Notes under the pieces: generated by a model
What the model was told of the DNA's origin: nothing
What the model saw: the letters and a program-made list of their open reading frames with translations, nothing else
Databases searched by the model: none
Part shown: positions 9,198 to 54,120 of the stretch, piece after piece
How positions within the stretch are numbered: position 1 is the first letter of the stretch
How the letters are laid out: every line of letters starts with the position of its first letter
From: Streptomyces sp. P9-A2
GTDB lineage: Bacteria; Actinomycetota; Actinomycetes; Streptomycetales; Streptomycetaceae
Assembly (NCBI RefSeq): GCF_036634175.1
Contig: NZ_JAZIFX010000001.1
Coordinates: 6,386,001 to 6,450,000, forward strand
DNA length: 64,000 bases
Reading direction: 5' to 3'
Position numbers and translations under genes: made by a program

Positions 9198-10439
9198 ATG
9201 ACCATTGACGTACTGCGGCGGCCGGGCTCGGCCGAGCGGCAGGCTCGCGCAGCCGTTGCCGTGCTCTTCTTCACCAACGGCGCCCTGTTCGCCAACCTGC
9301 TGCCGCGCTATCCGCAGATCAAGGCGGATCTCGGCATCGGCAACGCCGCCTACGGACTGGCCGTCGCGGCGTTCCCGGCGGGGGCCGTCGTGGCCGGGCT
9401 GGGGGCGGGAGTCCTCGTCCGCCGACTGGGCTCGGCGCGGGCGGCGGTGGCGAGCACCCTGCTGACCGCGGCCGGGATTCTCGTCGCCGGTCTGGCGCAG
9501 TCGGTGGTGCTGTTCGCGATGGCACTGTTCCTGGCCGGCGCCATGGACGCGTTCACCGACGTCGCGCAGAACGCCCACGGGCTGCGGGTGCAGCGCCGCT
9601 ACGGACGCTCCATCATCAACTCCTTCCACGCCATCTGGTCCATCGGCGCCGTCACCGGCGGAGCCATGGCCGCCGGGGCGATCGCGCTCGACCTCCCGCT
9701 CGGCGTGCACCTGCTGATCTCGGGCGTGCTCTTCGGGATCACCGCCTGTGTCGCCCTGCGGTTCTGCCTGCCGGGACCCGACACCGAGCCGGCCGAGGAA
9801 ACGGAGGCGAAGGAGGAGTCGAGGGAGAAGGGGAGCGGCGGAGGCGGGCGTTCGGTCGTGACCTCGCGGACGCGGTACGTGCTGGCCGCGCTCGTCCTCA
9901 TCGCCACCGCCGGGACGCTCGTCGAGGACGCGGGCAACTCCTGGGCCGCGCTCTACCTCTCCGACTCACTGAACGCGTCGGCGGCACTGGCGGCCTCCGG
10001 CTTCATCGCCCTGGTCGGGGCCCAGTTCGTCGGCCGGATCCTCGGCGACCGGCTCGTCGACCGGTTCGGTCAGCGCGCGGTGGCCCGAGCCGGCGGCCTC
10101 ATCGCCGCGGTCGGCATGGGGCTGGCGCTGGCCGTGCCCACGGTGCCCGGCACGATCCTCGGCTTCGCCGCGGCCGGGTTCGGTGTGGCGACCCTGGTGC
10201 CGGCGGCGATGCACGAGGCCGACGAACTGCCCGGCCTCAAGCCCGGCTCGGGGCTGACGATCGTCTCCTGGCTGATGCGGCTCGGCTTCCTGCTCTCCCC
10301 GCCGATCGTCGGCCTCGTCGCCGACGAGGCCGGCCTGCGCCTCGGCCTGCTGGTGGTGCCCCTCGCAGGCGTGATCGTGGTCGTGCTCGCCGGGGTGCTG
10401 GGGGCCCGGAAGCGGCAACCGGCAAGCGACGAGGGGTAG
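9198..10439 (+). CDS. MFS transporter (YbjJ-like)
   Basis: A 413-residue major facilitator with about 12 predicted helices in two halves, split by a charged cytosolic loop ([21 protein letters not shown], about 195-216). The opening [19 protein letters not shown] and the [16 protein letters not shown] loop after helix 2 fit the YbjJ/FsrB-like branch of small-molecule exporters. No clear Shine-Dalgarno is seen before the ATG at 9198; a -10-like hexamer directly upstream suggests leaderless expression. The shared inverted repeat ties it to the TetR gene at 11099. It is related in sequence to the MFS at 11726. The substrate is unknown. Confidence 0.88.
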
Positions 10440-10469
10440 AAGAGCGCCGCGGCGACCCTCGTACGCAAT

Positions 10470-10489
10470 GAGCGTACGTTCGTACGCTC
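10470..10489. promoter_or_regulatory. TetR-type operator of the acetyltransferase-tetR operon
   Basis: The arms GAGCGTACG and CGTACGCTC are perfect inverted repeats around a TT centre. The site lies 20 bp before the ATG at 10510, with TACCGT at 10497-10502 as a likely -10 box 7 bp before the ATG. The same operator stands before the MFS gene at 9198. The most likely ligand is the TetR protein encoded second in this operon, acting as an autorepressor. Confidence 0.75.
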
Positions 10490-10509
10490 CAGGGTGTACC
10501 GTCGGTTTC

Positions 10510-11091
10510 ATGCCGACGGACCACTTCGCGCAGGACCCCCGTACCAACCTGGAACGGATGCGGGCGGGCGACCTCTACATCGCCGACGATCCCGAGATCG
10601 CCCGCCGGCAGCAGGAGGCCGTACGCCTGGCCGCCCGCTTCCAGGCCGCCTTCGTCGAGGACGCCGCCGCGGCGCAGTCGATCCTCGCCGAACTGCTCGG
10701 CGCCGTGGGCGAGGAGGCGCATGTGCGCCCGCCCCTGCACGTCGACTACGGCAGCAACATCACCATCGGGGCACGCACCTTCGTCAACTACAACCTGACC
10801 GCGCTGGACGTCGCGGCCATCGTCATCGGCGAGGACTGCCAGATCGGCCCGAACGTCCAGCTCCTCACCCCCACGCACCCCGTGGAACCGCAGCCCCGGC
10901 GCGACAAGCTGGAGGCCGCGCAGCCGATCACCATCGGCGACAACGTCTGGATCGGCGGCGGCGCCATCGTCCTGCCCGGAGTCACCATCGGGGACAACTC
11001 CGTGATCGGCGCCGGCGCGGTCGTCACCAAGGACGTACCGGCGAACGTGATCGCCGTCGGCAACCCCGCCCGCCCGGTCCGCGGTATCTGA
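10510..11091 (+). CDS. Sugar O-acetyltransferase (maltose/galactoside acetyltransferase type)
   Basis: A 193-residue left-handed beta-helix acetyltransferase of the LacA/Maa family. The N-terminal maltose acetyltransferase helix ([19 protein letters not shown]) is followed by hexapeptide repeats, [23 protein letters not shown], the family's catalytic histidine in [14 protein letters not shown], and the closing [25 protein letters not shown]. It transfers acetyl from acetyl-CoA to a sugar or similar acceptor. ATG 10510 is preferred over the longer in-frame start at 10468, which would run through the operator. The tetR gene follows after 7 bp. The shared operator with the MFS gene suggests acetylation and export of one compound (inference). 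Confidence 0.92.
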
Positions 11092-11098
11092 GGCTCCC

Positions 11099-11662
11099 GT
11101 GGCCACCGGACACACCGACCCGCAACGGCGCGAACGCATCATCGCCGCCACCCTCGACCTCATCGCGGAGGAGGGCCTCGCGGCGGTCTCGCACCGCAAG
11201 ATCGCCCGGCGCGCCGGGGTGCCGCTGGGGTCCATGACGTACCACTTCAGCGGGATGGACGAACTGCTCAGAGAGGCCTTCGGTGAGTTCACCGGCCAGG
11301 CGGTCGCGGTCTTCGACGCGTATCTCGCGGAGCCGGCCGACAGGGAGGAGGCCATCGAGGCCGTGGCCGACCTCGTCCACACCCTGTCCGAGGGCAGCCG
11401 GCGCGACCTCGTGCTCACCCAGGAGCTGTACGCTCTCGCCGCACGCCGGCCCGCCTACCGGGAACTCACCCACGAGTGGATGCGCCGCAGCCGGGTCCAC
11501 CTCGAGAAGTACTTCGACCCGGACACCGCCCGCCAGCTCGACGCCCTCATCGAGGGACTGACCCTCCATCGCGCCCTGTCCCGGGAACCCCATGACCGGG
11601 TCCTGACGCTCGCCGCGATCACCCGCATCACCACGGCGACCGGCACTCACCGGGAGCCCTGA
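11099..11662 (+). CDS. TetR-family transcriptional regulator (probable local repressor)
   Basis: A 187-residue TetR protein with a GTG start 7 bp after the acetyltransferase gene. The N-terminal helix-turn-helix reads RIIAATLDLIAEEGLAAVSHRKIARRAGVPLGSMTYHF (about residues 13-50, quoted here only as the domain landmark SHRKIARRAGVPLGSMTYHF). The C-terminal helical ligand and dimer domain is short but complete. Co-transcription with the acetyltransferase, and the same inverted repeat before that gene and before the MFS at 9198, make autorepression and control of the exporter the simplest model. The inducer may be the molecule acetylated or exported. A 15-bp hairpin follows directly. Confidence 0.9.
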   Translation: MATGHTDPQRRERIIAATLDLIAEEGLAAVSHRKIARRAGVPLGSMTYHFSGMDELLREAFGEFTGQAVAVFDAYLAEPADREEAIEAVADLVHTLSEGSRRDLVLTQELYALAARRPAYRELTHEWMRRSRVHLEKYFDPDTARQLDALIEGLTLHRALSREPHDRVLTLAAITRITTATGTHREP

Positions 11663-11678
11663 GCGGGACCCCCAGCCG

Positions 11679-11715
11679 CCCGTGCGGCACAGTCCTGACC
11701 ACTGTGCCGCACGGG
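11679..11715. terminator. Bidirectional hairpin terminator between tetR and the convergent MFS gene
   Basis: A perfect 15-bp stem (CCCGTGCGGCACAGT, 11679-11693) with a 7-nt loop and its complement at 11701-11715 lies in the 63-bp gap between two convergent genes. There is no clear U-tract, as is common in Streptomyces. Confidence 0.8.
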
Positions 11716-11725
11716 CATCACCGCC

Positions 11726-13009
11726 TCAGGCGACCCCGTCCACGTCCGGTCCCGCGCCCCCACCGGCCGGGGCGGCCACAGCCTGCTTCCGCCAGGTGAC
11801 GCGCCGCGCGGAGACGGACACCAGCAGGGCCGAGGCGGCGACCACCGCCATGCCGACCGTCAGGTCCGTTCGGCCCGCCACGAAGCCGATCAGCGCCGGG
11901 CCGGCCAGCAGGCCGGTGGTGCCCATGGCGGCGACCAGGGCCAGGGCCCGCGGACCCTCCGCGGCGGCCGCGACGTAGAGGCAGGGCGTCACGGTCGCCA
12001 TGCCCAGGCCCACACAGGCGAAGCCGATCAGCGCGGGCCAGGTCCCGCCGGCCGCCAGGGCGAGCGCGAGACCGGTGCCGGCCACCACACTGCCGACGTG
12101 GACGACCCGTGCGTCGCCCAGGCGGCTCCGCCAGCCGTCGCCGAGGAGGCGGGCCAGCACCATCATCACCGACACCACGGCGATGCCCAGCGGCGCGAGC
12201 TGCCCCGACGCGCCGGTCTCCGCCGTGAGGTAGAGCGCCGACCAGTCGTTCATCGCGCCCTCGGTGACCGTGCCGAACACCATCGCGCAACCCAGCCAGA
12301 GTGCCGCCCCGGAGGCACCGGCGAAGCGCCGGACGGTCTTGGCGGTGCCCTTCGCGGCATCCTCCTCCGCGACATCCCGCTCGGGCTCGTCCCGCTCGGG
12401 CTCCGCAGTGTGCTCGTCGGCGGTCAGACGCGGGCGCGCGGCGGTGAGCAGCAGCAGGAGCAGGGCCGCGGCGACGGCGAAGTGCGCGGACACGGTGTGC
12501 GTCACGACGTTCATCCCCGACGCGAGGAGCGCGGCCGCGAGCGAGCCCGCGCTGAACGTGGCGTGCAGCCGCGCCATCGCGGCCCGCCCGTACCGGGCCT
12601 CGAGCGCCGCGCCCTGCGCGTTCATGGCGACGTTCAGACAGCCGACGGCCACCCCGTCGACGAAGACCACCACCAGGGCGAGGGGGTAGGAGCCGGCCGC
12701 GGACAGCGCCGGCAGCACCGCCGCCAGAGCCAGTGCCGACCAGAGCGCGAGACGCCGCGAACCGAGCTGCCGCATCAGCCGGGCGACCAGCGGGAAGGAC
12801 ACCGCGGCGCCGACCCCGCAGACCATCAGCAGCAGACCCAGCCGTGTTTCGTCGAGGCCGAACCGGTCCTTGAGAGCGGGCAGCCGGGAGACCCAGGTGG
12901 CGTACTGGAAGCCGAGGAAGCAGAACAGCGCGGCGATGGCCAGCTGGTCGCGCCGGAAGGCGCCGAGCGCGCGGGGTGCGGGGGTACGGGGTGCGGGGGT
13001 GCGGGACAT
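11726..13009 (-). CDS. MFS transporter, last gene of the PhyH-decarboxylase operon
   Basis: A 427-residue major facilitator of about 12 helices, related to the one at 9198 (opening AIAALFCFLGFQYATWVSRLPALKDRFGL). The two halves are separated by a charged loop (TAEPERDEPERDVAEEDAAKG). Its ATG lies 5 bp after the stop of the decarboxylase-acetyltransferase gene, so it belongs to that operon and probably exports the product or provides self-protection. The N-terminus carries a five-residue repeat (RTPAP twice) from a 15-bp DNA repeat at 12973-13002. The direction of transport is inferred from family and context only. Confidence 0.88.
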   Translation of the reverse strand: MSRTPAPRTPAPRALGAFRRDQLAIAALFCFLGFQYATWVSRLPALKDRFGLDETRLGLLLMVCGVGAAVSFPLVARLMRQLGSRRLALWSALALAAVLPALSAAGSYPLALVVVFVDGVAVGCLNVAMNAQGAALEARYGRAAMARLHATFSAGSLAAALLASGMNVVTHTVSAHFAVAAALLLLLLTAARPRLTADEHTAEPERDEPERDVAEEDAAKGTAKTVRRFAGASGAALWLGCAMVFGTVTEGAMNDWSALYLTAETGASGQLAPLGIAVVSVMMVLARLLGDGWRSRLGDARVVHVGSVVAGTGLALALAAGGTWPALIGFACVGLGMATVTPCLYVAAAAEGPRALALVAAMGTTGLLAGPALIGFVAGRTDLTVGMAVVAASALLVSVSARRVTWRKQAVAAPAGGGAGPDVDGVA

Positions 13010-13014
13010 GGGCG

Positions 13015-14817
13015 TCAGCCCTCCGTTTCGGGGCCGTCGGACCGGCAGCCCGGGACCGGGCCGGACATGTAGACCGCGTTCTCGCCGTAACTCGCGGGGA
13101 GTTCGACCCGTCGGTCGGGCCGGAACCCGTGCCGGGCCCAGAAACTCTCGGTGCCTCCCACGGCGACCAGGGAGACCTCCTCGTACACCTGTCGTGCGGT
13201 CGCGGTGAGATGGCGTACGAGCCTGCCGCCCAGGCCCCGGCCGCGCAGGTCGTCGGCGACGACCAGGTCGTGCAGGTGCAGATGGGAGGAGGCGAAGGAC
13301 CGCTCCTCGGGCCGCTCCAGGTCCGGATACCGCGACGGCGGGTAGGGCAGGGCGAGGACGTAGCCGGCGATCCGGTCGCCGGTCTCCAGGACGAAGCAGG
13401 TCGCAGGGGAGGCGCGGCCCCGGGACTCCAGCGCCTCCCGGCCCTCGGACAGCCCGGCGGGCGCGTACACCTCGGCCTCCAGGGCGGCGACCCGCGGCCA
13501 GTCGTCCTCGGCGAGGAGGCGGATACGCAGGCCGCCCAGCACCTGGTCCCGCACCAGCACCTGATCCCGCACCGGTACCCGATCCCGCCCGGAGCGGACC
13601 GGGGAACCACCCCTGCCGCCACCGCCACCGCCCCTGCCGTCGCCGTCGCCGTCGCTCCCGCCCACGCAGCTGTGGGGGAGCGGGGCGAAGCCGTTGAAGC
13701 CGCGGGTCATGTAGCTGGTGGCGTAGGCGCCGCTGGACAGCACCCAGACCGGGTCGCCCGAGGCGAGCGCCTTCGGCACGAGGACACGGCGGTGCTCGGG
13801 CGCGTAGGAGTCGTCGCTGTCACAGGTGGGGCCCGCGACGACGGCGGGGACCAGGTCGGCGTCGGCCGGATGGGTCGGAAAGACGAGCGGATACTGCAAC
13901 TCGTCCATCTCATAAAGGCCGTTGAACTTTCCGCAGCTCAGATAGAGCCAGTACGCCCGTTCCCCGTCCGGTCGCCGGCGCGAGGTGAGCCGGGAGACGT
14001 GCGCCCTGACGGCACTGTGGTCGGCGACCAGATGGCGTCCCGGCTCGATCAGGAAGTCCAGTGGATCCGGGGCGAGTTCGCGGAGGCGTTCCATGCCCTC
14101 GCGTAGGACGGCGAAGATCTTGTCCAGCGGGGGTTCCAGCCGGTCTCCCCGCCGGTCCGTGTAGCCGAGTGCGGGCAGGCCGCCGCCGAGGTTGACGTGA
14201 TCGGGCGAGATTCCGCGCGCGTGCAGTGCCGGCAGGACCTCACCCAGCGTCGCGAACGCCTGCTGCCAGGCCTCGGTGGTCATCTGCTGCGACCCGACGT
14301 GCACCGACAGCCCGGCGGGGACCAGACCCGCCTCCCGCGCCGACTCCAGTACGCGTACGGCGTCGTCCGCCGAGCAGCCGAACTTCCGGCTCAGTCCCCA
14401 CAGGGCCCCCTGGCCCGTGGTCGCCAGCCGGCAGAACACCCGGGAGCCGGGGGCGTGCGCGGCCAGCGCCGCCACGTCCTCCGGGCTGTCGGTGGCGAAG
14501 TCCCGTACGCCGAGCCGGTGGGCCTGGGCGATGTGCTCGTCGGACTTGACGGTGTTGCCGTAGTGGATCCGGTCCGCGGGCGTGCCCGTGGCGAGGGCCT
14601 GGACGATTTCCCGGGGGCTCGCCGCGTCGAACCCGGCGCCCCGGCCGGCCAGGCACGCCAGCACCTCGTCCACGGGGCACGCCTTCATGGCGAACCGCAC
14701 GCCGACGCCGGGCAACTCCCCGGTCAGCGCGTCGAACCGGGCGGCGATGCCGTCCAGGTCATGGATGATCCGGTCGTTCGGGGCAGCCGCGAGCGCGGTA
14801 CGCAGTGCCGGATTCAC
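13015..14817 (-). CDS. Fusion: fold-III PLP decarboxylase (ornithine/lysine type) plus GNAT acetyltransferase
   Basis: A 600-residue two-domain protein. Residues 1 to about 390 are a fold-type III PLP decarboxylase. The PLP lysine is K45 in RFAMKACP. Also present are LSVHVGSQQM, the phosphate loop NLGGGLPALGY, the catalytic cysteine motif AGPTCDSDDS and a GAYATSYMTRGFNGF C-terminus. A glycine-rich and repeat-bearing linker (GDGDGRGGGGGGRGG, VRDQVLVRDQVLGG) leads to a GNAT domain from about 430, with the acetyl-CoA loop DDLRGRGLGGRLVRHL. The fusion could decarboxylate a basic amino acid and acetylate the amine in one polypeptide. The GTG start overlaps the upstream stop. The substrate is not known; ornithine- or lysine-like is inferred from family. 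Confidence 0.88.
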   Translation of the reverse strand: MNPALRTALAAAPNDRIIHDLDGIAARFDALTGELPGVGVRFAMKACPVDEVLACLAGRGAGFDAASPREIVQALATGTPADRIHYGNTVKSDEHIAQAHRLGVRDFATDSPEDVAALAAHAPGSRVFCRLATTGQGALWGLSRKFGCSADDAVRVLESAREAGLVPAGLSVHVGSQQMTTEAWQQAFATLGEVLPALHARGISPDHVNLGGGLPALGYTDRRGDRLEPPLDKIFAVLREGMERLRELAPDPLDFLIEPGRHLVADHSAVRAHVSRLTSRRRPDGERAYWLYLSCGKFNGLYEMDELQYPLVFPTHPADADLVPAVVAGPTCDSDDSYAPEHRRVLVPKALASGDPVWVLSSGAYATSYMTRGFNGFAPLPHSCVGGSDGDGDGRGGGGGGRGGSPVRSGRDRVPVRDQVLVRDQVLGGLRIRLLAEDDWPRVAALEAEVYAPAGLSEGREALESRGRASPATCFVLETGDRIAGYVLALPYPPSRYPDLERPEERSFASSHLHLHDLVVADDLRGRGLGGRLVRHLTATARQVYEEVSLVAVGGTESFWARHGFRPDRRVELPASYGENAVYMSGPVPGCRSDGPETEG

Positions 14818-16196
14818 CGGACCGCGCCCCGGGACCGGACGGTGGCACCGGGGCGGGCCGCGCTCCGGACGCCGGTCGTCCGGGCCGCTTCCATCAGCGC
14901 CGCCCAGCCGTCGATCAGCAGCACGAAGTCCTCGATGTCCCGCCCCGCCTCCGCCAGCAGCGACTCCTGCTCCGCGGCCACTCGCTCGGCGAACTCGGCG
15001 TATTTTCCGCCCAGTCGTCGGTAGGTCCGCTGGACGACGTCCAGTCGGCGCTCGTTCTCGGCGCGGTCCAGCCGCACGCTGCGTGCCAGCAGGGCACGGA
15101 CCGGCGCCGCGTCGAGCCGCTGCCCGTCGTCGAGGAGCGCGGGACCGGCCTCGGCCATGCCGGCGTAGACGAAGTGGAAGTGGAGCATCGACAGCAGGAA
15201 CTTCACGAACCGCCGCTGGTACGCCATGAATCCGGCATGCGTACGGCGTTCCCCGGTGTAGAAGTTCTCGATGTCCCGGTTGTGCAGGACACCGGGCAGG
15301 GTGGCGTCGTGCACGGCGTGGACGAGGAAGTAGTCGCTGCCGATGGTGTCGGTCGCGGGCGGCAGCGGCAGCCGCTCGTACACGTCCTGGTGGAAGGCGA
15401 TGTTGCACATGTCCACCCGCATGGGGTCGACCAGGGTCAGCGTCGCGTGGTCGCCCCGGAAGGGAAGCAGCCCGGCACCCTTGAAGGACTCCTCGGCCAG
15501 GCCCGCCCGCTCCTCCTCGGACCACTCGGCCGGGGCCCACAGGCCCACGACCGTGTCGTACGCGTCCTTGTCGAGTTCCCGGATGCCGCCGATGTCGACG
15601 GACAGTTCCCCGATGAAGGACGCGCCCACCATCGCCACCGGCCGATGGGCGAGCGATGGATCGAGGTCCACTTCCGACACCCCGGCGGAGGCGTCGGCGG
15701 CCCGCTTGCCGAGAGACGCCAGCTCGTGACGGATCGGGAAGACGGGCTCGCCCTCGAACACCTGGTAGCGGCTGTCGGAGTCCCGGCGGTGCACCGAACG
15801 GCACCCCAGAGCGGCCGCGACGAGGAACGCCCGGTCGGTGCAGGCACCGTACGAGACGCCGTCCGGGAGCAGGAGGCCGAGCAGGTGGTCCGGCTCCGAC
15901 TCCGGCAGCGCGGCGCGGTCGATCACGTCCCGCAGAAAGACCCGTTGGGCCCGCTCGTCGAGGTGGTGCACCACGACACCCGGGACCACGGGCAGCCCGG
16001 CGACGGTGCGGTCGTGCGCCGAGACGGTCGGCGCGTCGGAGGAGTCGAGAATCAGCAGATGCACCTCGACCTCGAACTCCCTTACGGCGTAAGCCGCTTC
16101 GGCGGCGACGGCGGAGATGGTCGCCGCACACGCCCGGTTCGTCGGGAGTGTCAGACCGACCCTGTGCCGGCGTGGCACGTCGAACGCCCCGGTCAT
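14814..16196 (-). CDS. Protein of unassigned family (possibly DUF6271), glycosyltransferase-like N-terminus
   Basis: A 460-residue soluble protein that I cannot assign with certainty. The N-terminus (HRVGLTLPTNRACAATISAV...EVEVHLLILDSSD) looks like the first strand-helix-strand of a GT-A-like nucleotide-binding fold. The middle has DPMRVDMCNIAFHQDVYERL and TDTIGSDYFLVHAVHD, and the C-terminal third is helical and charged. There is no signal peptide or membrane helix. It starts 4 nt inside the PhyH stop and its stop overlaps the decarboxylase start, so it is made in step with both. Its position between two biosynthetic enzymes suggests that it activates, transfers or conjugates the pathway intermediate. 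That role is inference only. Confidence 0.75.
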   Translation of the reverse strand: MTGAFDVPRRHRVGLTLPTNRACAATISAVAAEAAYAVREFEVEVHLLILDSSDAPTVSAHDRTVAGLPVVPGVVVHHLDERAQRVFLRDVIDRAALPESEPDHLLGLLLPDGVSYGACTDRAFLVAAALGCRSVHRRDSDSRYQVFEGEPVFPIRHELASLGKRAADASAGVSEVDLDPSLAHRPVAMVGASFIGELSVDIGGIRELDKDAYDTVVGLWAPAEWSEEERAGLAEESFKGAGLLPFRGDHATLTLVDPMRVDMCNIAFHQDVYERLPLPPATDTIGSDYFLVHAVHDATLPGVLHNRDIENFYTGERRTHAGFMAYQRRFVKFLLSMLHFHFVYAGMAEAGPALLDDGQRLDAAPVRALLARSVRLDRAENERRLDVVQRTYRRLGGKYAEFAERVAAEQESLLAEAGRDIEDFVLLIDGWAALMEAARTTGVRSAARPGATVRSRGAVR

Positions 16197-17281
16197 CGCG
16201 TCCGCCCGGGACGGCCACCGTGCTCGTGCCAGGAGTCCATTCCCAGCAACTTCCGCCCCAAGTCGCTGAGTTCGGCGGTGCCGTACCGCTCGGACTCGTG
16301 CCGGGTCGCGTCGCCGAGCAGGGTCGCGTTCCAGTCCGGCGTGCCGAGCGTGCGCCAGGACTCGATCCGGGACCGGCGCAGTTCCTCGTGCTCCTCCAGC
16401 GCCGGCATCATCGACAGGTACTGCACCGCCCGTACCCCGTCGGCGGAAGTGTTGGGTGCCACGCCGTGCGCCAGCATGCCGTTGAAGATCAGCAGGTCAC
16501 CGGCGTTGAGCTGGGGCCGGATCACCGGGAACTCGGCCCGGTCGGCCCCGGGCCGGATCGGGTCGCGGCCGGCGGGCCGGCCCACCTTCCACTCCTCGAA
16601 GCGGTGGAAGAGTCCGGGCGAGCACTGGAAGCCGCCCTGGTCCGGCTCCGTGTCCGTGAGCGCGATGATGCCCTGCACCCGCTGCGGCGGCACACTGGCC
16701 GTGGTGTCGACGTCCCAGTGCAGCTCGATGTCGAAGCCCTCGTCCGTCGGCTCGATGAACGACCGGGAACGGTTCCCCACATTGGGCGGGTTGAGGTTGA
16801 GACGGTCCAGGGTGACCCAGAGTTCCTCGCAGTCCCACACATCGGCGAAGGCGTCGTGGACGCGCCGCGACTGCCTGCTGTCCCAGAGCAGTTGGTGGTG
16901 GTACGCCTCGACGAAGCCGTAGACGTACAGGTCCCGGTCGAGGTCCGAGCGGAAGGTGCGCTCCTCGTACCAGGTCTCGGGGCGCTGCGGGTCGAGGCCC
17001 TGGAAGTCCCAGGCGAACTCCAGCAGCAGCTTGGCCGCGTCCGGGGATATCGCCTCCCGGACCACCACATAGCCGTACGCCTGCCAGGAGGCGAACTCCT
17101 CCTCGGAGAGCACCCGCAACGGCCGGGACTTGGTGAGGTGCCGCAACTGGGTCCCGGCGAGGTAGGTCTCGCCGTCGGCACTGAAGTACGGGCGTTCGGA
17201 GGCGGCGCGGTGTAAGAAGCGGTGGAGCGCAGGACGGTCCTGCGTCGGACGGTCCTGCGTCGGGTGGTTCTGCGTCGTCAT
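16193..17281 (-). CDS. PhyH-type Fe(II)/2-oxoglutarate dioxygenase, first gene of a bldA-type operon
   Basis: A 362-residue phytanoyl-CoA dioxygenase-family protein. The iron-binding facial triad is visible as HWDVD (His and Asp) and the distal His in GMLAHGVAPN, with a downstream arginine for 2-oxoglutarate. Such enzymes hydroxylate or oxidatively modify natural-product intermediates. GGAG 7 bp before the ATG supports the start. Codon 23 (17215-17213) is TTA, the rare leucine codon read by bldA tRNA, so the whole coupled operon is likely held until development. The N-terminus repeats TQDRP because of a 15-bp DNA repeat. The substrate is unknown. Confidence 0.88.
   Translation of the reverse strand: MTTQNHPTQDRPTQDRPALHRFLHRAASERPYFSADGETYLAGTQLRHLTKSRPLRVLSEEEFASWQAYGYVVVREAISPDAAKLLLEFAWDFQGLDPQRPETWYEERTFRSDLDRDLYVYGFVEAYHHQLLWDSRQSRRVHDAFADVWDCEELWVTLDRLNLNPPNVGNRSRSFIEPTDEGFDIELHWDVDTTASVPPQRVQGIIALTDTEPDQGGFQCSPGLFHRFEEWKVGRPAGRDPIRPGADRAEFPVIRPQLNAGDLLIFNGMLAHGVAPNTSADGVRAVQYLSMMPALEEHEELRRSRIESWRTLGTPDWNATLLGDATRHESERYGTAELSDLGRKLLGMDSWHEHGGRPGRTR
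17232..17276. repeat. 15-bp tandem repeat (3 units) at the PhyH N-terminus
   Basis: GGACGGTCCTGCGTC occurs at 17232-17246 and 17247-17261, with a diverged third copy at 17262-17276. It is in phase with the reading frame and encodes TQDRP-type repeats. Confidence 0.85.
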
Positions 17282-17445: not shown

Positions 17446-18600
17446 TCAGATGCTGCGGACCGCGGCACGCCGGGCCGCCGCTGGGCCCGTCACGGGTCCG
17501 AGCCCGGCTCCGGCCTCGGCTCTGTCGCCGGTCGCGTCCCGTCGCAGTCCGCCCGACCAGCGGGCGAACTCCTGTACGCGGGAAGCGGCTTCGGTGAGCC
17601 GTTCCTCCGGCAGGCGCCCGTCCCGTACGGCGCGGACCAGGGCGTCGGCGAGCCGGGCCGTGGTCCGTTCGTCCGCGTGCCCGTGCCCGCCGCCGACGCA
17701 GACCGCGTCGGCCCCCGCGGCGACCGCCCGGACGGTGGCGCCGGCCACGCCGTAGCGGTCGGCCACGGCGCCCATCTCGATGGCGTCGGTCACGATCAGA
17801 CCGGTGAAGCCGAGTTCGCCGCGCAGCAGGTCCTGGGTGACGGCGCGGCTCAGGGTCGCCGGCCGGCGGTCGTCGTAGGCGGGGACCAGCAGGTGGCCGG
17901 TCATGACGGCCCGCACGCCCGCGTCCATCGCGGCGATGAACGGCGGCAGCGCGGTCAGGGCCACGGTCCCGGCCCGCGCCGGCACCTGCGGCAGCCCGAG
18001 ACGGCGGCTGACAACGGTGTCACCGTGGCCCGGGAAGTGCTTGGCGCAGGCGGCGACACCCGCCGACTGCAGGCCCCGTACCCACGCGGCGGCGTGCCGG
18101 GAGACCACGTCGGTGCGCGCGCCGAAGGAACGGACCCCGATCACCGGGTGGTACGGATCGGGGGCGACGTCGGCGCTCGGCGTGTAGCTCAGGGTGATGC
18201 CGAGCGTGTGCAGGTCCCGCCCGACGCCGTGGGCGACCTGTTCGGTGACATCGATGTTGTCGAGGGCGCCCAGTGCACGGTTGCCCGGACGGAACGCCCC
18301 GGTGCGGGCGTCCGGGCGGGTGGCGCCGCCCGCCTCCTCGCCGCCCGCCTCCTCGCCGTCCGCCTCCTCGTCCAGGCCGATGACGAGGTCGGGGTTCTCG
18401 GCGTGCAGCGCGGAGGTGAGTGCTGCCACCTGCTCGGGGCCGTGGATGTTGCGGCCGGACAGGGCGACGGAGGCGAGCCCCTCGGAGATCCGGCGGCGCA
18501 CCCAGTCCGGCACGGTGGAGCCGGTGAAGCCGGGCTGGAGAACGGAGTGTGCCAGCCGCAGCAGGCGTGGATTACCGCCGATGCGGCCGTGGTCGGCCAT
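17446..18600 (-). CDS. GH3-family protein lacking the acid/base dyad (beta-N-acetylhexosaminidase-like)
   Basis: A 384-residue NagZ-like glycoside hydrolase family 3 protein, clearly paralogous to the GH3 at 23149. The barrel motifs KHFPGHGDT (187-195) and the nucleophile Asp in IVTDAIEMGAV (D272) are kept. However, the loop that carries the Asp-His acid/base pair in NagZ (D-S-H) reads S-R-R here (198-200). The substrate loop near residue 80 is replaced by a low-complexity EEADGEEAGGEEAGG stretch from a 15-bp repeat. It may be inactive, a binder or sensor, or have altered chemistry. A dre-like site lies upstream, linking it to the adjacent DasR-like regulator. Confidence 0.85.
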   Translation of the reverse strand: MADHGRIGGNPRLLRLAHSVLQPGFTGSTVPDWVRRRISEGLASVALSGRNIHGPEQVAALTSALHAENPDLVIGLDEEADGEEAGGEEAGGATRPDARTGAFRPGNRALGALDNIDVTEQVAHGVGRDLHTLGITLSYTPSADVAPDPYHPVIGVRSFGARTDVVSRHAAAWVRGLQSAGVAACAKHFPGHGDTVVSRRLGLPQVPARAGTVALTALPPFIAAMDAGVRAVMTGHLLVPAYDDRRPATLSRAVTQDLLRGELGFTGLIVTDAIEMGAVADRYGVAGATVRAVAAGADAVCVGGGHGHADERTTARLADALVRAVRDGRLPEERLTEAASRVQEFARWSGGLRRDATGDRAEAGAGLGPVTGPAAARRAAVRSI

Positions 18601-18718: not shown

Positions 18719-18734
18719 ATTGGCCTGGACCAAT
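18719..18734. promoter_or_regulatory. dre-like operator upstream of the GH3-like gene
   Basis: ATTGGCCTGGACCAAT resembles the DasR responsive element (TGGTCTAGACCA core), with perfect ATTGG/CCAAT outer arms. It is about 120 bp before the start of the minus-strand GH3-like gene. Confidence 0.5.
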
Positions 18735-18823: not shown

Positions 18824-19588
18824 TCAGGGTGCGGGCGGCGTCAGGGTCGCCGTGAACCGGTACCGCGAGCCGCGGTACACCGCGCGGACCCATTCGACCG
18901 GCGTTCCCGTCTCGTCCCGCGAGTGGCGGGACAGCCGCAGCATCGGCAGGCCCACGTCCGTGTGCAGCAGGTCGGCCTCCCGCGGTGTGGCGGGGGAGGT
19001 CTCGATGGTCTCGTCGGCCTCCGCCAGGCGTATGCCGTACACCTCGGTGAGCGTCGCGTAGAGCGAGGTGCGGCGGGCCAGGTTCCGGCGCAGGCCGGGG
19101 AAGCGGCGCGCGGACAGATGGGTCGCCTCGATCGCCATGGGTTCGCCCCCGGCCAGGCGCAGCCGCTCGACGCGCAGCACCTTCTCGCCCCGCCCCACCT
19201 CGAGCAGGGCCGCCAGTTCCTCACCGGCCGCGATGTGGTCGATGTTCAGGAGCTGGGAGGCGGGGGTGAGGCCCTGGTTGCGCATGTCCTCGGTGTACGA
19301 GGTCAGTTGGAGGGTCCGGTAGATCTTCGGGCGGGCGACGAAGGTGCCCTTGCCCTGGATGCGGATCAGCCGGCCCTCGCTCACCAGTTCCTGAAGGGCC
19401 TTGCGGACGGTGGTGCGCGAGGTCCGGAACTCGAGGGCGAGGGAGCGCTCGGCCGGCATCGGCGAGCCCGGTGGGCGCGCCTCGGTCAGGCCCAGTAAGT
19501 GCTGCTTGATGCGGTAGTACTTCGGGGCGCGGCCGGTGGGGTCCGGTGCCCCCGTGTCGGTCCGGGCGCTGCTGAGGTCCGTGCTCAT
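18824..19588 (-). CDS. DasR-like GntR-family (HutC subfamily) regulator containing a TTA codon
   Basis: A 254-residue GntR/HutC regulator. The N-terminal winged helix reads [11 protein letters not shown]...[29 protein letters not shown] (quoted in parts). The C-terminal UTRA domain binds the ligand ([36 protein letters not shown]). Length and layout match DasR, which senses glucosamine-6-phosphate-type sugars, but from memory the identity is well below that normal between DasR orthologues, so a paralogue is more likely. ATG 19588 is chosen because it gives the DasR-like N-terminus. Codon 31 (19498-19496) is TTA, so translation may depend on bldA. Three dre-like sites lie in the divergent promoter. 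Confidence 0.88.
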
Positions 19589-19712: not shown

Positions 19713-19726
19713 TTGGTCTAGTCCAA
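19713..19726. promoter_or_regulatory. dre-like operator 1 in the regulator/ABC divergent region
   Basis: TTGGTCTAGTCCAA is one base from a perfect palindrome and matches the TGGTCTAGACCA core of DasR sites. It is closer to the regulator gene, suggesting autoregulation. Confidence 0.65.
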
Positions 19727-19821
19727 CCCTCGACACGTCCCTGTTCAAGGGGAGTTCGAGGTTCCGCGAGAAGCGTCGGGAGAGGCCCGGGGGATTGGCC
19801 GCGCGACCCTTGACAGGGCTA

Positions 19822-19835
19822 TAGGTCTAGGCCAA
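19822..19835. promoter_or_regulatory. dre-like operator 2
   Basis: TAGGTCTAGGCCAA keeps the GGTCTAG half of the DasR-type core with a diverged second arm, about 125 bp before the binding-protein start. Confidence 0.5.
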
Positions 19836-19845
19836 GCTCCCCCTT

Positions 19846-19861
19846 GCTGGTCTAAACCATT
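19846..19861. promoter_or_regulatory. dre-like operator 3, close match
   Basis: GCTGGTCTAAACCATT differs from the reported dre consensus core TGGTCTAGACCA at one base. It lies about 100 bp before the binding-protein start and is the best candidate for control of the ABC operon. Confidence 0.65.
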
Positions 19862-19959: not shown

Positions 19960-21237
19960 GTGAAGCGCAAGCTGATAGCAGCGATCGGGGTCGCGGGCAT
20001 GTTGTTCTCCGTCGCCGCGTGTGGCGGCGACAGTGGTGACGGCGACAAGAAGGCAGGCGCGGACGGTTACGCCGGCGAGACGCTCACCGTGTGGGTGATG
20101 GACGGCTCGTCGCCGGACCAGTGGCAGAAGGACCTCACCGCCGAGTTCGAGAAGAAGACCAAGGCGAAGGTCAAGTTCGAGGTCCAGCAGTGGAACGGCA
20201 TCCAGCAGAAGCTGACCACGTCGCTGTCCGAGGAGAACCCGCCGGACGTCTTCGAGATCGGTAACACCCAGACCCCGGCCTACGCGAAGACCGGCGGCCT
20301 CGCCGACCTCGCCGACCTCAAGGCCGAGATCGGCGGAGAGTGGACCGACTCGCTCAACGAGTCGTCCGTCTTCGAGGGCAAGCAGTACGCGGCGCCCTGG
20401 TACTTCGCCAACCGCGTCGTCCTCTACAACAAGAAGGTCTGGGCGGACGCCGGCCTCAAGGACACGCCCAAGACCCGTGACGAGTTCTACGACGCGCTCA
20501 AGGCGATCGGTGACAAGACCGACGCGGAGCCGATCTACCTGCCCGGCCAGAACTGGTACCACTTCGTCGGCCTGGTGATCGGCGAGGGCGGCGAACTGGT
20601 CAAGAAGGACGGCGACAAGTACGTCTCCAACCTCGACGACCCGAAGGTCGCCGCCGCCGCGGAGACGTACAAGAAGTTCCAGGCGCTGTCCAAGGCGCCC
20701 AAGGACAAGGACGAGGCCACCCCGCAGCAGGGCGAGGTCTTCGCCGACGGCAAGGTCGGCGCGTTCATCGGCATGGGCTGGGAAGCCGGCATCGCGATCG
20801 AGGCCAACCCGAAGATCGAGAAGGACATCGGCTACTTCACCATCCCCGGCGCCACGGCCGACAAGCCCGAGGGCGTCTTCCTCGGCGGCTCCAACCTCGC
20901 CGTCGCCGCGGGCAGCAAGAAGCAGGAGCTCGCCAAGGAGTTCCTGAAGATCGCCCTCTCCGACCAGTTCGAGGGCCAGCTGGCCAAGCTCAACGGCGTC
21001 ATCCCCAACAAGGAGTCGCTGCAGAGCAACCTCAAGGGCAACGCCCCGGCCGAGGCCGCCGCGCCGGCCGCCGCCGTCGGTGGCACCACGCCGCTGATCC
21101 CGGAGTGGGCCGCTGTGGAGAACGACCCCAACCCGATCAAGACGTACCTGACCGCCGTCCTGAACGGCAAGTCCCCGGCCGAGGCCGCCAAGCAGGTCGA
21201 GGGCGAGTTCAACAAGCGTCTGTCGCAGCAGCAGTAG
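19960..21237 (+). CDS. Carbohydrate-binding lipoprotein of a Das-like aminosugar ABC importer
   Basis: A 425-residue family-1 sugar-binding lipoprotein. The GTG at 19960, 8 nt after GAGGAGG, gives a signal of MKRKLIAAIGVAGMLFSVAAC with the lipobox cysteine at about 21. The mature part (ETLTVWVMDGS, FEVQQWNG, ENPPDVFEIGNTQTP, YLPGQNWYHFVG, GEVFADGKVGAFIGMGWEAG) closely resembles my recollection of DasA, the chitobiose/GlcNAc-oligomer binder. It probably captures GlcNAc-type oligosaccharides at the cell surface for the two permeases downstream. The operon has no ATPase; MsiK-type shared ATPases serve such importers in Streptomyces (known for the family). Confidence 0.9.
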   Translation: MKRKLIAAIGVAGMLFSVAACGGDSGDGDKKAGADGYAGETLTVWVMDGSSPDQWQKDLTAEFEKKTKAKVKFEVQQWNGIQQKLTTSLSEENPPDVFEIGNTQTPAYAKTGGLADLADLKAEIGGEWTDSLNESSVFEGKQYAAPWYFANRVVLYNKKVWADAGLKDTPKTRDEFYDALKAIGDKTDAEPIYLPGQNWYHFVGLVIGEGGELVKKDGDKYVSNLDDPKVAAAAETYKKFQALSKAPKDKDEATPQQGEVFADGKVGAFIGMGWEAGIAIEANPKIEKDIGYFTIPGATADKPEGVFLGGSNLAVAAGSKKQELAKEFLKIALSDQFEGQLAKLNGVIPNKESLQSNLKGNAPAEAAAPAAAVGGTTPLIPEWAAVENDPNPIKTYLTAVLNGKSPAEAAKQVEGEFNKRLSQQQ

Positions 21238-21325
21238 CCGCAGCGAGCGCACGGAGCGGGCGGGGGCCGGCCACTCGCCGGCCCCCGCCCCGGCGTCGAG
21301 TATGTCGAGAAGAGAGATCGCGAGC

Positions 21326-22312
21326 ATGACCGTGCAGACCGAACGGCCGCCCTCCGGCCCGGCGGACGTCCGCAAGGCGGACGACGGGGGGGCCGGCAGG
21401 CCGACACCGAGAGCGGCGTCGCGCGTCGGCGCACTCGCCCCGTACCTGTTGCTGCTGCCCGCCTGTGTGGCCTCCGTGCTGCTGCTCGGCTGGCCGCTGC
21501 TGAAGGACGTGCTGCTGTCGTTCCAGAACCTCAACATGGGACAGCTGATCCAGCGCGTCACCGAATGGAACGGTGTCGACAACTACCGGACGGCCCTCAC
21601 CAGTGAGGACTTCTGGCGGGTCACCCTCCGCTCGATCCTCTTCACGGCGGTCAACGTCGTCCTGATCATGGTGCTGGGCGCACTGGTCGGCCTGCTGCTC
21701 GCCCGTCTCGGCAAGGGGATGCGGTTCACCCTGCTGCTGGGCCTGGTGCTCGCCTGGGCCATGCCGATCGTGGCCGCCACCACCGTCTACCAGTGGCTGT
21801 TCGCACAGCGCTTCGGCGTCGTCAACTGGGTCCTGGACAAGCTCGGCTGGCACTCCATGGCCGACTACAGCTGGACCAGCAGCCAGATGTCGACGTTCTT
21901 CGTCATCACCGTACTGATCGTGTGGATGTCCATCCCGTTCGTCGCGATCAACCTCTACGCCGCGACCACCACGATCCCGAAGGAGCTCTACGAGGCCGCG
22001 TCCCTCGACGGCGCCGGCGCCTGGCGCGGCTTCACCACGGTCACCCTGCCGTTCCTGCGGCCGTTCCTCTACGCCACCACGTTCCTGGAGATCATCTGGG
22101 TCTTCAAGGCGTTCGTGCAGGTCTACCTCATCAACCAGGGCGGCCCCGACCGGCTCACCGAGATCCTGCCCGTCTACGCCTACGTCGAGGGTGTCGGCAA
22201 CCAGCACTACGGCATGGGCGCGGCGATCGCCGTCCTGACCATCGCGATCCTGCTCGGCCTGACCGCCTACTACCTGCGGATCGTGCTCAAGCAAGAGGAG
22301 GACGAGCTGTGA
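21326..22312 (+). CDS. Sugar ABC transporter permease 1 (Das-like)
   Basis: A 328-residue MalF-type permease with six main helices and a docking EAA loop (YEAASLDGAGAWRGFTTVTLPFL). A charged N-terminal tail of about 35 residues precedes the first helix (APYLLLLPACVASVLLLGWPLL). ATG 21326, behind an AGAGAG stretch, is preferred; an in-frame ATG at 21302 would add eight residues. The stop overlaps the GTG of the second permease. Together they form the channel for the oligosaccharide delivered by the lipoprotein upstream. Confidence 0.92.
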   Translation: MTVQTERPPSGPADVRKADDGGAGRPTPRAASRVGALAPYLLLLPACVASVLLLGWPLLKDVLLSFQNLNMGQLIQRVTEWNGVDNYRTALTSEDFWRVTLRSILFTAVNVVLIMVLGALVGLLLARLGKGMRFTLLLGLVLAWAMPIVAATTVYQWLFAQRFGVVNWVLDKLGWHSMADYSWTSSQMSTFFVITVLIVWMSIPFVAINLYAATTTIPKELYEAASLDGAGAWRGFTTVTLPFLRPFLYATTFLEIIWVFKAFVQVYLINQGGPDRLTEILPVYAYVEGVGNQHYGMGAAIAVLTIAILLGLTAYYLRIVLKQEEDEL

Positions 22313-23139
22313 AGCGCTCGCTCTTCGGCCGCCTGTGGCCCAACGCCACGGCCGTCGTCCTGTTCATCGGCTTCGTCTTCCCCGTGTACTGGATGTTCAA
22401 CACGGCCCTCAAGCCGACCGGCGACATCCTCTCGGAGGACCCGGTCTGGTTCCCGACCGACATCACCTTCGAACACTTCAAGACCGCGACCGATGTCGAC
22501 CACTTCTGGACCTACGTCACCAACTCGCTGACGGTCACCGTCCTGGCCGTGGTCTTCTCGCTGGTGATCGCGCTGGCCGGTTCCTTCGCCCTGGCGCGCA
22601 TGCGCTTCAAGGGGCGGCGCGGCTTCATCATCGGATTCATGCTGGCCCAGATGGCGCCCTGGGAAGTCATGATCATCGCGATGTACATGATCGTGCGGGA
22701 CGCGTCCATGCTGAACAGCCTCGTACCGCTGACGCTCTTCTACATGATGATGATCCTGCCCTTCACCATCCTGACGCTGCGCGGCTTCGTCGCCGCCGTG
22801 CCCAAGGAGCTGGAGGAGTCGGCGATGGTCGACGGCTGCACCCGCGCCCAGGCGTTCCGCCGGATCATCCTGCCGCTGCTCGCCCCGGGCCTGATGGCCA
22901 CCTCGCTGTTCGGCTTCATCACCGCCTGGAACGAGTTCGCCCTCGTCCTGGTGCTCAACAAGGACGCCGAGGCGCAGACGCTGCCCCTGTGGCTGTCCAG
23001 CTTCCAGAGCCAGTTCGGCAACGACTGGGGCGCGACCATGGCCGCCTCGTCGCTCTTCGCCATTCCGATCCTGATCCTCTTCGTCTACCTGCAGCGCAAG
23101 GCCGTCAGCGGCCTCACCGCGGGCGCCGTGAAGGGATAA
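22309..23139 (+). CDS. Sugar ABC transporter permease 2 (Das-like)
   Basis: A 276-residue MalG-type permease with six helices. It starts at GTG 22309 in a GTGA overlap with permease 1. Landmarks are VFPVYWMFNTALKPTGDI at the first helix, ALARMRFKGRRG, the EAA loop EESAMVDGCTRAQAFRRIILPLL, and GFITAWNEFALVLVL. It completes the heterodimeric channel. The GH3 gene follows after 9 bp, so imported oligosaccharides would meet a cytosolic hexosaminidase made from the same message. Confidence 0.93.
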   Translation: MKRSLFGRLWPNATAVVLFIGFVFPVYWMFNTALKPTGDILSEDPVWFPTDITFEHFKTATDVDHFWTYVTNSLTVTVLAVVFSLVIALAGSFALARMRFKGRRGFIIGFMLAQMAPWEVMIIAMYMIVRDASMLNSLVPLTLFYMMMILPFTILTLRGFVAAVPKELEESAMVDGCTRAQAFRRIILPLLAPGLMATSLFGFITAWNEFALVLVLNKDAEAQTLPLWLSSFQSQFGNDWGATMAASSLFAIPILILFVYLQRKAVSGLTAGAVKG

Positions 23140-23148
23140 CGCCACCCG

Positions 23149-24687
23149 ATGACGACATTCACCACCGGCACCGACGCCCTCACCCGGGACGCGCTGGCCG
23201 TACTGCAGCCCGGCTTCGCCGGCACCGCCGCGCCCGACTGGATACGCCGCAGGCTCGGCGAGGGCCTCGCCTCCGTCGCCCTCTTCGGCCGCAACGTCGC
23301 CACCGCCGAACAGGTCACCGCCCTCACCGCGCAACTGCGCGCCGAGCGGGACGACCTGCTCGTGGCCATCGACGAGGAGAGCGGCGACGTCACCCGGCTG
23401 GAGGTCCGCACCGGCTCCTCCTTCCCCGGCAACCACGCCCTCGGCGCCGTCGACGACACCGCCCTCACCCGCGGCGTCGCCCGCGAACTGGGCCGCCGGC
23501 TCGCCGAGTGCGGCGTCAACTTCAACTGGGCGCCCTCCGCCGACGTCAACGCCAATCCGGACAACCCGGTCATCGGCGTCCGCTCCTTCGGCCGCGACAC
23601 CGACCTGGTCGCCCGGCACACCGCCGCCTACGTGGAGGGCCTGCAGTCCACCGGCGTCGCCGCCTGCACCAAGCACTTCCCCGGCCACGGCGACACCAGC
23701 GTCGACTCCCACCACGCCGTCCCGCACATCGACCTCGACGCCACCACCCTGCACGAACGCGAACTCCAGCCGTTCCGGGCGGCGATCGAGGCCGGCACCC
23801 GCGCCGTCATGAGCGCCCACATCAAGGTCCCGGTCCTCGACCCGGACCGCCCCGCCACCCTCTCCCGCCGCATCCTCACCGGCCTGCTGCGCGGCGAACT
23901 CGGCTACCAGGGGCTGATCGTCACCGACGGCATGGAGATGCGCGCCGTCTCCGGCACCTACGGTCTCGAACACGGAGTCGTCCTGGCCATCGCGGCCGGC
24001 GCCGACGCGATCTGCGTGGGCGGCGGGCTGTGCGACGAGGACACGGTGCAGGGCCTGACGAACGCTCTCGTCGCCGCCGTCCGCTCGGGCGAACTCCCCG
24101 AGGAGCGGCTCGCCGACGCCGCCGCCCGGGTCCGCGCCCTGGCCGACTGGACGGCCACGATGCGGCGCTCCCCGGCCCCCGAGGGCGACCGCGATCCGGA
24201 GATCGGCCTCACGGCGGCCCGCCGCGCGGTGACCGTCACCCGCACCGGGCCCGCCGCGCCGGTCACCGGGCCGGTGTACGTGGCCACCTTCCACCCCGCC
24301 GCCAACATCGCCGTCGGCGACGAGACCCCCTGGGGCGTCGGCGCGGAACTGGAACGGCTGCTGCCGGGCACCACCACCGGCTCCTTCACCGACACCGGCT
24401 CCGACACGGGCTCCGGCTCAGGCACGGGCTCAGGCACGGGCTCCGACGTCGGTGCGCGGGCGCTCGAGGCCGCGGCCGGCCGGCGCGTGGTCGCCGTGGT
24501 CCGCGACGAGCACCGGCACCCGTGGATGCGCACGGCCCTGGACACCCTGCTCGCGGCCGGGCCGGACGCCGTGGTCGTGGAGATGGGCGTACCGCAGTCC
24601 GCGCCGCGCGGCGCGCCGCACATCGCCACGCACGGCGCGGCGCGCGTGTGCGGGACCGCGGCGGCGGAGGCGGTCGTCGCGGGCTGA
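23149..24687 (+). CDS. GH3 beta-N-acetylhexosaminidase-like enzyme (catalytic residues intact)
   Basis: A 512-residue GH3 protein without a signal peptide, so probably cytosolic. The NagZ-type loop KHFPGHGDTSVDSH is complete, with the acid/base pair D186/H188, and the nucleophile is D260 in IVTDGMEM. Residues after about 340 form a second alpha/beta domain, with a Gly/Ser/Thr low-complexity insert (GSDTGSGSGTGSGTGSD, about 416-432) from a short DNA repeat. It likely releases GlcNAc from imported chito-oligosaccharides. It is the final gene of the Das-like operon and is followed by a 19-bp perfect terminator stem. Confidence 0.9.
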   Translation: MTTFTTGTDALTRDALAVLQPGFAGTAAPDWIRRRLGEGLASVALFGRNVATAEQVTALTAQLRAERDDLLVAIDEESGDVTRLEVRTGSSFPGNHALGAVDDTALTRGVARELGRRLAECGVNFNWAPSADVNANPDNPVIGVRSFGRDTDLVARHTAAYVEGLQSTGVAACTKHFPGHGDTSVDSHHAVPHIDLDATTLHERELQPFRAAIEAGTRAVMSAHIKVPVLDPDRPATLSRRILTGLLRGELGYQGLIVTDGMEMRAVSGTYGLEHGVVLAIAAGADAICVGGGLCDEDTVQGLTNALVAAVRSGELPEERLADAAARVRALADWTATMRRSPAPEGDRDPEIGLTAARRAVTVTRTGPAAPVTGPVYVATFHPAANIAVGDETPWGVGAELERLLPGTTTGSFTDTGSDTGSGSGTGSGTGSDVGARALEAAAGRRVVAVVRDEHRHPWMRTALDTLLAAGPDAVVVEMGVPQSAPRGAPHIATHGAARVCGTAAAEAVVAG

Positions 24688-53832: not shown

Positions 53833-54120
53833 TTCCGCGGGCTCCGCGGGCTCGGCGGGAACCGGGGCGGTTCACCCGGCGTGTCCCGTGGCGGAGCCGG
53901 CGCGCGGCTCCCGTGCGGACCGCGAGTGCCGCACCACCGCCACACAGCCGTCACTTCGAACGACACGCCACCACCACGCCGTCACCACGTCACCACCGTG
54001 CCGTCCGGGCCGGGCGGCACCGGGGCGGTCCCGCCGCCCCACCTCCCGCCGCCCCACCTCCCGGCGCCCGGCGCCGACCTGTCACTTCCGTCCGTCACCC
54101 AGCTCCGAAGGACGTATCCC

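Follow-up and report, generated by a model that had tools for sequence, protein, structure and literature searches.

A widespread and apparently undescribed operon family built around a PhyH oxygenase and a DUF6271 protein, with dre-like sites upstream, in Streptomyces and related actinomycetes

What do four tightly packed genes in the genome of Streptomyces sp. P9-A2 make, and what switches them on? They lie in a stretch of 64,000 nucleotides (G000:C1:6386001-6450000, hereafter the window) of a genome of 8.39 Mb, and encode a PhyH-type oxygenase, a protein of Pfam family DUF6271, a decarboxylase fused to a GNAT acyltransferase and a major facilitator superfamily (MFS) transporter. A sequence-only reading of this DNA had proposed a compact, bldA-switched pathway for a small hydroxylated, acetylated amine or amino-acid-derived metabolite, an idea that proved right in outline and wrong on the regulation that is conserved. 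Here, the four genes are one copy of a widespread and apparently undescribed biosynthesis-and-export family with two finishing modules. We give an even chance to the whole of our best explanation, a DasR-controlled biosynthetic operon family of which the window holds a copy of the first architecture (A).

According to open reading frame calls and Pfam, all four genes are on the minus strand in the order PhyH, DUF6271, decarboxylase-GNAT and MFS, and their positions, the two overlaps of 4 bp and the following gap of 5 bp are as the earlier reading had described. The first gene encodes a Fe(II)/2-oxoglutarate (2OG) oxygenase of 362 amino acids (aa) (16193..17281; PF05721, E 6.7e-13). The second encodes the DUF6271 protein of 460 aa (14814..16196; 713 bits to Pfam DUF6271), whose predicted glycosyltransferase A (GT-A) fold is nearest to the GT75 nucleoside diphosphate (NDP)-pyranose mutases. 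The third, with a GTG start (13015..14817), combines a class III pyridoxal phosphate (PLP) decarboxylase domain of the ornithine/lysine decarboxylase group (13663..14817; PF02784, E 6.6e-41) with a GNAT N-acyltransferase domain (13018..13542; PF00583, E 2.8e-11). The last encodes an MFS transporter of 427 aa (11726..13009; PF07690, E 1.2e-25), likely an exporter, as we infer for its direction.

Of the 295 congeners sampled, 90 contained DUF6271, and none of the 14 control genomes did; three of the 90 (G037, G127 and G156) had only distant relatives and no PhyH. In a draw across the phylum it occurred in 5 of 396 genomes, including that of the window, all of one genus, and in a named collection also in Actinacidiphila, Streptantibioticus, Kitasatospora, Actinokineospora, Kibdelosporangium and Actinospica. 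Flanks were obtained for 79 of the 90 matching congener genomes (80 with the window's own). The 145 neighbourhoods examined (80 from the congener draw, 64 from the named collection, and the window) comprised 102 loci of architecture A, 24 of architecture B, eight others (L035, L089, L090 and L091 distant; L109, L167, L168 and L177 incomplete) and 11 duplicates, which shared an identical 500-base stretch of DUF6271 and were removed.

Gene content was highly uniform in architecture A: PhyH was present in 102 loci, the decarboxylase in 101, GNAT in 101 and the MFS gene in 100, part of the absent genes falling past contig ends. Among called pairs, neighbours overlapped or were at most 30 bp apart for PhyH-DUF6271 (102/102), DUF6271-decarboxylase (95/98), decarboxylase-GNAT (83/88) and GNAT-MFS (95/98). 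The sequence-only reading had staked itself on conserved co-occurrence of the four genes, which indeed keep the same order in these 102 de-duplicated loci, and the retention of the set bears out its view of one biosynthesis-and-export unit. That this is a conserved operon family is, in our opinion, practically certain. The decarboxylase-GNAT fusion, by comparison, is real in the window and does not define the family, since it was found in only eight of the 102 A loci, the window included. A few loci are either variants or assembly faults: the decarboxylase is mostly lost in L082, none was seen in L132, and the MFS gene is inverted in L119.

Architecture B showed the same pair of genes with a different continuation. 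In 24 of 24 loci, genes for a condensation-domain protein and a different MFS transporter come after PhyH-DUF6271, and a divergent arm encodes a seryl-tRNA-synthetase-like ligase, a carrier protein and a phosphopantetheinyl transferase (PPTase). The condensation, PPTase and MFS identities are based on Pfam matches in one locus (L088); the carrier protein, for which Pfam gave no match, was named by its D-S-M motif and position. The ligase resembles the amino acid:[carrier protein] ligase Bll0957 (E 6.6e-25), also in having a small carrier protein of D-S-M type and a PPTase as neighbours, and differs from that system in being divergent from a PhyH-DUF6271-condensation operon. All 24 loci came from the congener draw; the named-collection search used patterns from the window's A-type protein and yielded no B locus. 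In FastTree trees, of PhyH as well as of DUF6271, the B members group as one clade, a pattern consistent with the finishing module having been exchanged once. Because B members are 70-76% identical to the window's protein in PhyH and 51-62% in DUF6271, the first two steps look shared. Fusions point the same way from both architectures: DUF6271, decarboxylase and GNAT form a single chain in L075 and P0161, DUF6271 and the condensation domain form one in 5 of the 24 B loci, and DUF6271 is thus linked to the finishing steps.

Outside A and B, relatives of about 27% identity are flanked by a GT2-like glycosyltransferase on one side and an asparagine-synthase-like gene on the other (L035:7052-11325 and L091:6735-10912, with Pfam assignments for L035 only). 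Another distant clade is found near a transporter of the glycine-betaine-like ABC type, recognized by eye, with no PhyH (L089:7933-9297 and L090:7547-8908). No publication on DUF6271 or on this gene combination was found in the literature searched, a scope that excluded subscription journals and MIBiG and in which the product may carry another name.

What could control the family? Upstream of the window's operon, on the same strand, is a gene for a short glycoside hydrolase family 3 (GH3) protein (17446..18600, 164 bp upstream of PhyH), followed by the gene for DasR, a regulator responsive to N-acetylglucosamine (GlcNAc) (18824..19588, minus strand; E 8e-107 to solved DasR 9i0v/4zs8). A dre-like DasR site, TGGTCCAGGCCA (18721..18732, minus strand), lies 121-132 bp upstream of the GH3 start, and three more occupy the region between dasR and dasA (19714..19859; at 19714, 19823 and 19848, with 1, 2 and 1 mismatches). 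As the first of these sites precedes GH3, this gene may belong to a single unit with the other four. These four sites at 18.7-19.9 kb were the only ones in the window with at most two mismatches and the only ones used; a scan of the whole window at up to three mismatches was not significant (19 observed, 14.9 expected). The reference was the dre consensus A(G/C)TGGTCTAGACCA(G/C)T, as published in PMC4398421.

Across the family the signal was much stronger. A 12-bp dre core with at most two mismatches precedes the unit in 92 of 102 A loci (79 with at most one) and in all 23 testable B loci (each with at most one), one B locus without a PhyH gene call being excluded here and from the count of PhyH tails below. 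For loci with no site before PhyH, the regions before co-directional GH3 and das genes were also scanned, which gave them extra chances. The background was 10 of 488 other intergenic regions at two mismatches and 4 of 488 at one, with region lengths unmatched, and shuffled PhyH-upstream regions gave an expectation of about 1.5 in 123 at up to two mismatches. Divergent GH3-PhyH promoters often contain two such sites, and two also lie between the divergent arms of the example B locus L088 (4416-12408). The arrangement is like the DasR regulon in that dre-like sites stand before a transcription unit, with DasR itself near the window copy; it differs in that the sites here precede a biosynthetic pair that appears to be undescribed and in that the cores are near the published dre, whereas the outer bases often depart from the 16-mer. 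From these motifs, control of the operon through dre and DasR appears very likely, and a different HutC-type regulator sharing the same core is possible.

The TTA codon on which bldA control had been proposed does exist, as codon 23 of the window's PhyH gene (17213..17215, minus strand). It is not conserved: of the 102 PhyH genes of architecture A only 14 contain TTA, and when all operon genes are counted, 32 of the 102 loci have one. The conserved signal is the DasR-type site.

Neither the GH3 gene, the das neighbourhood nor architecture B had figured in the sequence-only reading. The operon-adjacent GH3 is a NagZ-like paralogue of 384 aa (PF00933, E 2e-57). On the plus strand beyond DasR lie sugar ABC transporter genes (19960..23139), recognized from their open reading frames by eye and by position next to DasR, which we take to be dasA, dasB and dasC, and then a second GH3 (23149..24687; PF00933, E 2e-71) of the DasD clade. 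A quick tree of 74 GH3 rows (midpoint root) separated a DasD clade of 15 rows from a partner clade of 59 with an SH-aLRT support of 100. All 59 partner rows adjoin PhyH, that of the window among them. The NagZ-type motifs KHFPGHGD and (T/S)D(A/G), which carry the general acid/base loop His and the nucleophile Asp of GH3 enzymes, are kept in all 74 rows, and the best match of a partner-clade member (L139, an A locus of S. tendae JCM 4610 in which GH3 is divergent) in the PDB is the GH3 beta-N-acetylglucosaminidase 6k5j (E 5e-77). By eye, with no prediction tool, the window GH3 has no N-terminal signal peptide. The partner is short in the window and in L095 (384 and 370 aa), compared with about 500 aa in most relatives, and the C-terminal part seems to have been lost in this small clade.

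A GH3 is found near 73 of the 102 A loci and 0 of the 24 B loci. Whether this merely reflects proximity to the das genes was considered and rejected for the partner clade, which is separate from DasD and in which 54 of 59 rows have no dasC call in the stretch examined around them. DasD-type or partner GH3s (E <= 1e-120) were present in 287 of 295 congeners, and partner-like ones with at least 600 bits in 38, of which 35 hold DUF6271 (Fisher 1.5e-17, a value that overstates independence as the sequences are related). The 600-bit cut was set afterwards in the observed gap between 605 and 585, and the short partner of the window scores below it. In G081, G093 and G247 the partner-like gene is elsewhere in the genome, and in G163 on another contig.

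Such a linkage raises the possibility of self-resistance, in which beta-N-acetylglucosaminidases are inhibited by the product once it is exported, the partner being an insensitive stand-in for DasD. A duplicated target gene within a cluster is a known sign of self-resistance, and the partner fits as a second, DasD-paralogous copy of a gene present in nearly all the congeners, with its own clade, its active-site motifs kept and, at 59 of 102 A loci, a place adjoining the operon. The linkage would be explained equally well if the glycosidase trimmed or salvaged the product, and no GH3 lies near 29 A loci or any of the 24 B loci; we think self-resistance rather unlikely.

The enzymes of the operon were then compared with their relatives. 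In PhyH, H188-x-D190, H272 and R284 are invariant across 31 aligned sequences; in this class the H-x-D...H residues form the metal triad and the Arg binds 2OG. With a Pfam score above the cut-off, this places PhyH among the Fe(II)/2OG enzymes, and its model (predicted local distance difference test, pLDDT, 72) matches Fe/2OG oxygenases, so many of them with similar scores that no substrate was inferred. A C-A-x-S-A sequence at the PhyH C-terminus (63 of 102 A and 23 of 23 B genes) was considered as a peptide tag and rejected, being a reading-frame shadow of the DUF6271 start (M-R-R-I-C-L in the other frame). Across loci the two genes overlap by a median of 19 bp, with PhyH ending inside the DUF6271 frame and about 19 bases dual-coding.

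The closest PDB match of the decarboxylase is the lysine/ornithine decarboxylase 2plj (E 1.9e-40). K45, H173, E258-PGR, C332-D333 and Y365, the PLP lysine, histidine, E-PGR, C-D and C-terminal tyrosine elements of class III PLP decarboxylases, are invariant in 19 sequences, and the set also aligns to 2plj. The oxygenase, decarboxylase and GNAT identities read from the sequence alone were upheld by Pfam, with catalytic columns kept in the first two, and all three domains look catalytically intact. The enzyme differs from known lysine/ornithine decarboxylases, apart from its fusion to GNAT in some loci, in the stretch aligned with the specificity helix of ornithine decarboxylase, which guides the choice of diamino acid. 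Here it reads S-C-G-K-F-N-G-L-Y-E-M-D, one residue longer than in 2plj after a shorter loop, with one Asp aligned. This makes plain ornithine or lysine doubtful and hints at a modified diamino acid. An AurF-like N-oxygenase gene in five of 102 A loci (L036, L037 at 3729-4736, L039, L162 and L178) is in keeping with an amine product.

These data bear on the product first proposed, a hydroxylated, acetylated metabolite of diamine type without a sugar, switched by bldA. The decarboxylase family, its retained C-D pair, the fused GNAT and the TTA codon of the window would all suit it, and a small hydroxylated, acetylated amine is possible. However, the altered specificity stretch speaks against plain ornithine or lysine and the scatter of TTA codons against the switch, and this reading accounts neither for the GT75-like protein nor for the dre-like sites or the partner GH3; we judge this explanation unlikely.

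The AlphaFold2 model of DUF6271 is confident (pLDDT 91.3) and matches GT-A folds in the PDB, the best being MtdL and OsUAM2, well above the remaining GT-A enzymes. A DXD-like motif, D139-S140-D141 (15774..15782, minus strand), is invariant in 43 sequences, including members only 24-27% identical to the window's, and the suggestion that this unassigned protein is GT-A-like is borne out by fold and motif together. The GT-A core and DXD-like motif are shared with mannosyl-3-phosphoglycerate and glucosyl-3-phosphoglycerate synthases and GlfT2. LH3 and COLGALT1, also in the Foldseek list (E about 3e-3 to 4e-3), offer a functional analogy, as lysine hydroxylation by a Fe/2OG hydroxylase is followed by glycosylation by a GT-A transferase; they are eukaryotic and modify proteins, and no kinship is claimed.

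Attempts to prove from sequence only that DUF6271 is a glycosyltransferase failed. The PDB profile search gave only TRAF6 (E 0.25), and the 12 families that any of the 43 members matched at E<=10 did not include PF03214, that of GT75, a search in which HMMER filters lose most weak matches. The hhalign scores against GT2 and GT75 were no better than those of PhyH, decarboxylase and column-shuffled controls. Among the matches listed, 3 of 120 homologues carry the source name 'Glycosyltransferase family 2'; the GT-A/GT75 assignment draws on the predicted fold and, in addition, on these three names. On the model, DUF6271 probably uses a sugar nucleotide.

With such neighbours in fold space, DUF6271 might be a metal-dependent NDP-pyranose/furanose mutase like MtdL, making an NDP-furanose for use by a transferase elsewhere. 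The comparison used MtdL residues D109-D111, H287, R289, D260, R257 and the essential R159, taken from PMC9937993. By eye, with L210 as the GT75 yardstick, DSD, H305, R307 and D288 of DUF6271 can be matched with the first four of these, and no Arg was seen at the position of R159 or R257, a comparison made without residue-level structural alignment. Identity to MtdL is 11-12% in structural alignments, and unlike the GT75 mutases (MtdL of A201A biosynthesis and plant UAM/RGP), to which it has no sequence-level match, DUF6271 is paired with an oxygenase. No separate glycosyltransferase was seen among the genes conserved in A or B, which would leave a lone mutase with no enzyme nearby to supply. 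We regard a mutase as quite unlikely. Least probable of all is a catabolic operon aiding the use of an amino-sugar-linked compound, as for many DasR targets: the dre-like sites, GH3 and das adjacency of some loci would fit, while the ligase, carrier protein, PPTase and condensation domain of B are biosynthetic, and GNAT and MFS genes would be unusual in catabolism.

We infer DasR binding, step order, substrate, sugar and product in the biosynthetic reading as follows. GlcNAc from chitin or dying hyphae would enter the cell, DasR would leave dre and the operon would be expressed. PhyH would hydroxylate an amino-acid substrate, and DUF6271, as a GT75-like GT-A enzyme, would attach a nucleotide-activated sugar to the hydroxylated intermediate. 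The PLP decarboxylase would then strip the carboxylate, GNAT (fused to it in the window) would acylate the freed amine, and the MFS protein would export the product. The DasD-paralogous GH3 may handle a beta-GlcNAc-like bond or its mimic, either trimming the product or replacing DasD if the latter is product-inhibited. In architecture B the same first two enzymes would be followed by an aminoacyl group delivered from the carrier protein via the condensation domain. We consider the exact chemistry as written less likely than not. A bolder version, which we consider unlikely, is that PhyH and a GT75-derived transferase make a new kind of glycosylated hydroxylated amino acid for GlcNAc-triggered metabolites finished by A or B. 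The A product would be a GlcNAc mimic blocking the NagZ/DasD glycosidases of organisms that compete for chitin, and the linked GH3 would be the copy that is insensitive to it.

On the other hand, several observations weigh against the biosynthetic, DasR-controlled reading. Pfam gives no known glycosyltransferase family for the 43 DUF6271 members, and hhalign was negative both with GT75 L210 (a single-sequence target and hence a weak test) and with GT2 (a set of eight sequences that included at least one junk entry). In the window copy the dre-like site carries two mismatches, and ten A loci have no site: three of Actinokineospora and one of Kibdelosporangium, the Streptomyces-type L045, L050 and L166 with ample upstream sequence, and L120, L132 and L152 with little. 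As regards GH3, the relatedness that inflates the Fisher value also counts here, as do the 29 A loci without the gene nearby, the partner-like GH3s without DUF6271 in G044, G060 and G241, and 12 A loci where DasD takes the place of the partner and plain proximity fits.

Some other features of the window were also recorded. Just past the operon, two perfectly complementary 16-bp arms enclose a 7-nt loop (11678..11716), forming an inverted repeat and candidate shared terminator; being between convergent genes, the hairpin could serve both sides. It had been called a perfect terminator: the repeat is perfect and the 71-nt stretch around it folds stably (-45 kcal/mol, z -3.5), but it has no T tract and a terminator scan gave none. 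The convergent genes that share it (9198-11662, plus strand) encode an MFS protein, a maltose-acetyltransferase-like hexapeptide protein and a TetR regulator. Far from the operon, a 1741-aa DUF3686/AAA ATPase (56241-61466, plus strand) stands beside a 761-aa protein (53881-56166) with no Pfam match at E 0.001.

Nearly three in ten of the sampled Streptomyces-type genomes hold this pathway, whose product is undescribed in the literature searched. For a Pfam family of unknown function there is now a confident predicted fold, which makes DUF6271 a test case for a GT75-like scaffold that may depart from the mutases. The dre-like sites suggest GlcNAc as a candidate inducer and dasR as a regulator to knock out in finding the product, and they connect the operon with the wider question of what metabolites are governed by the sensing of amino sugars.

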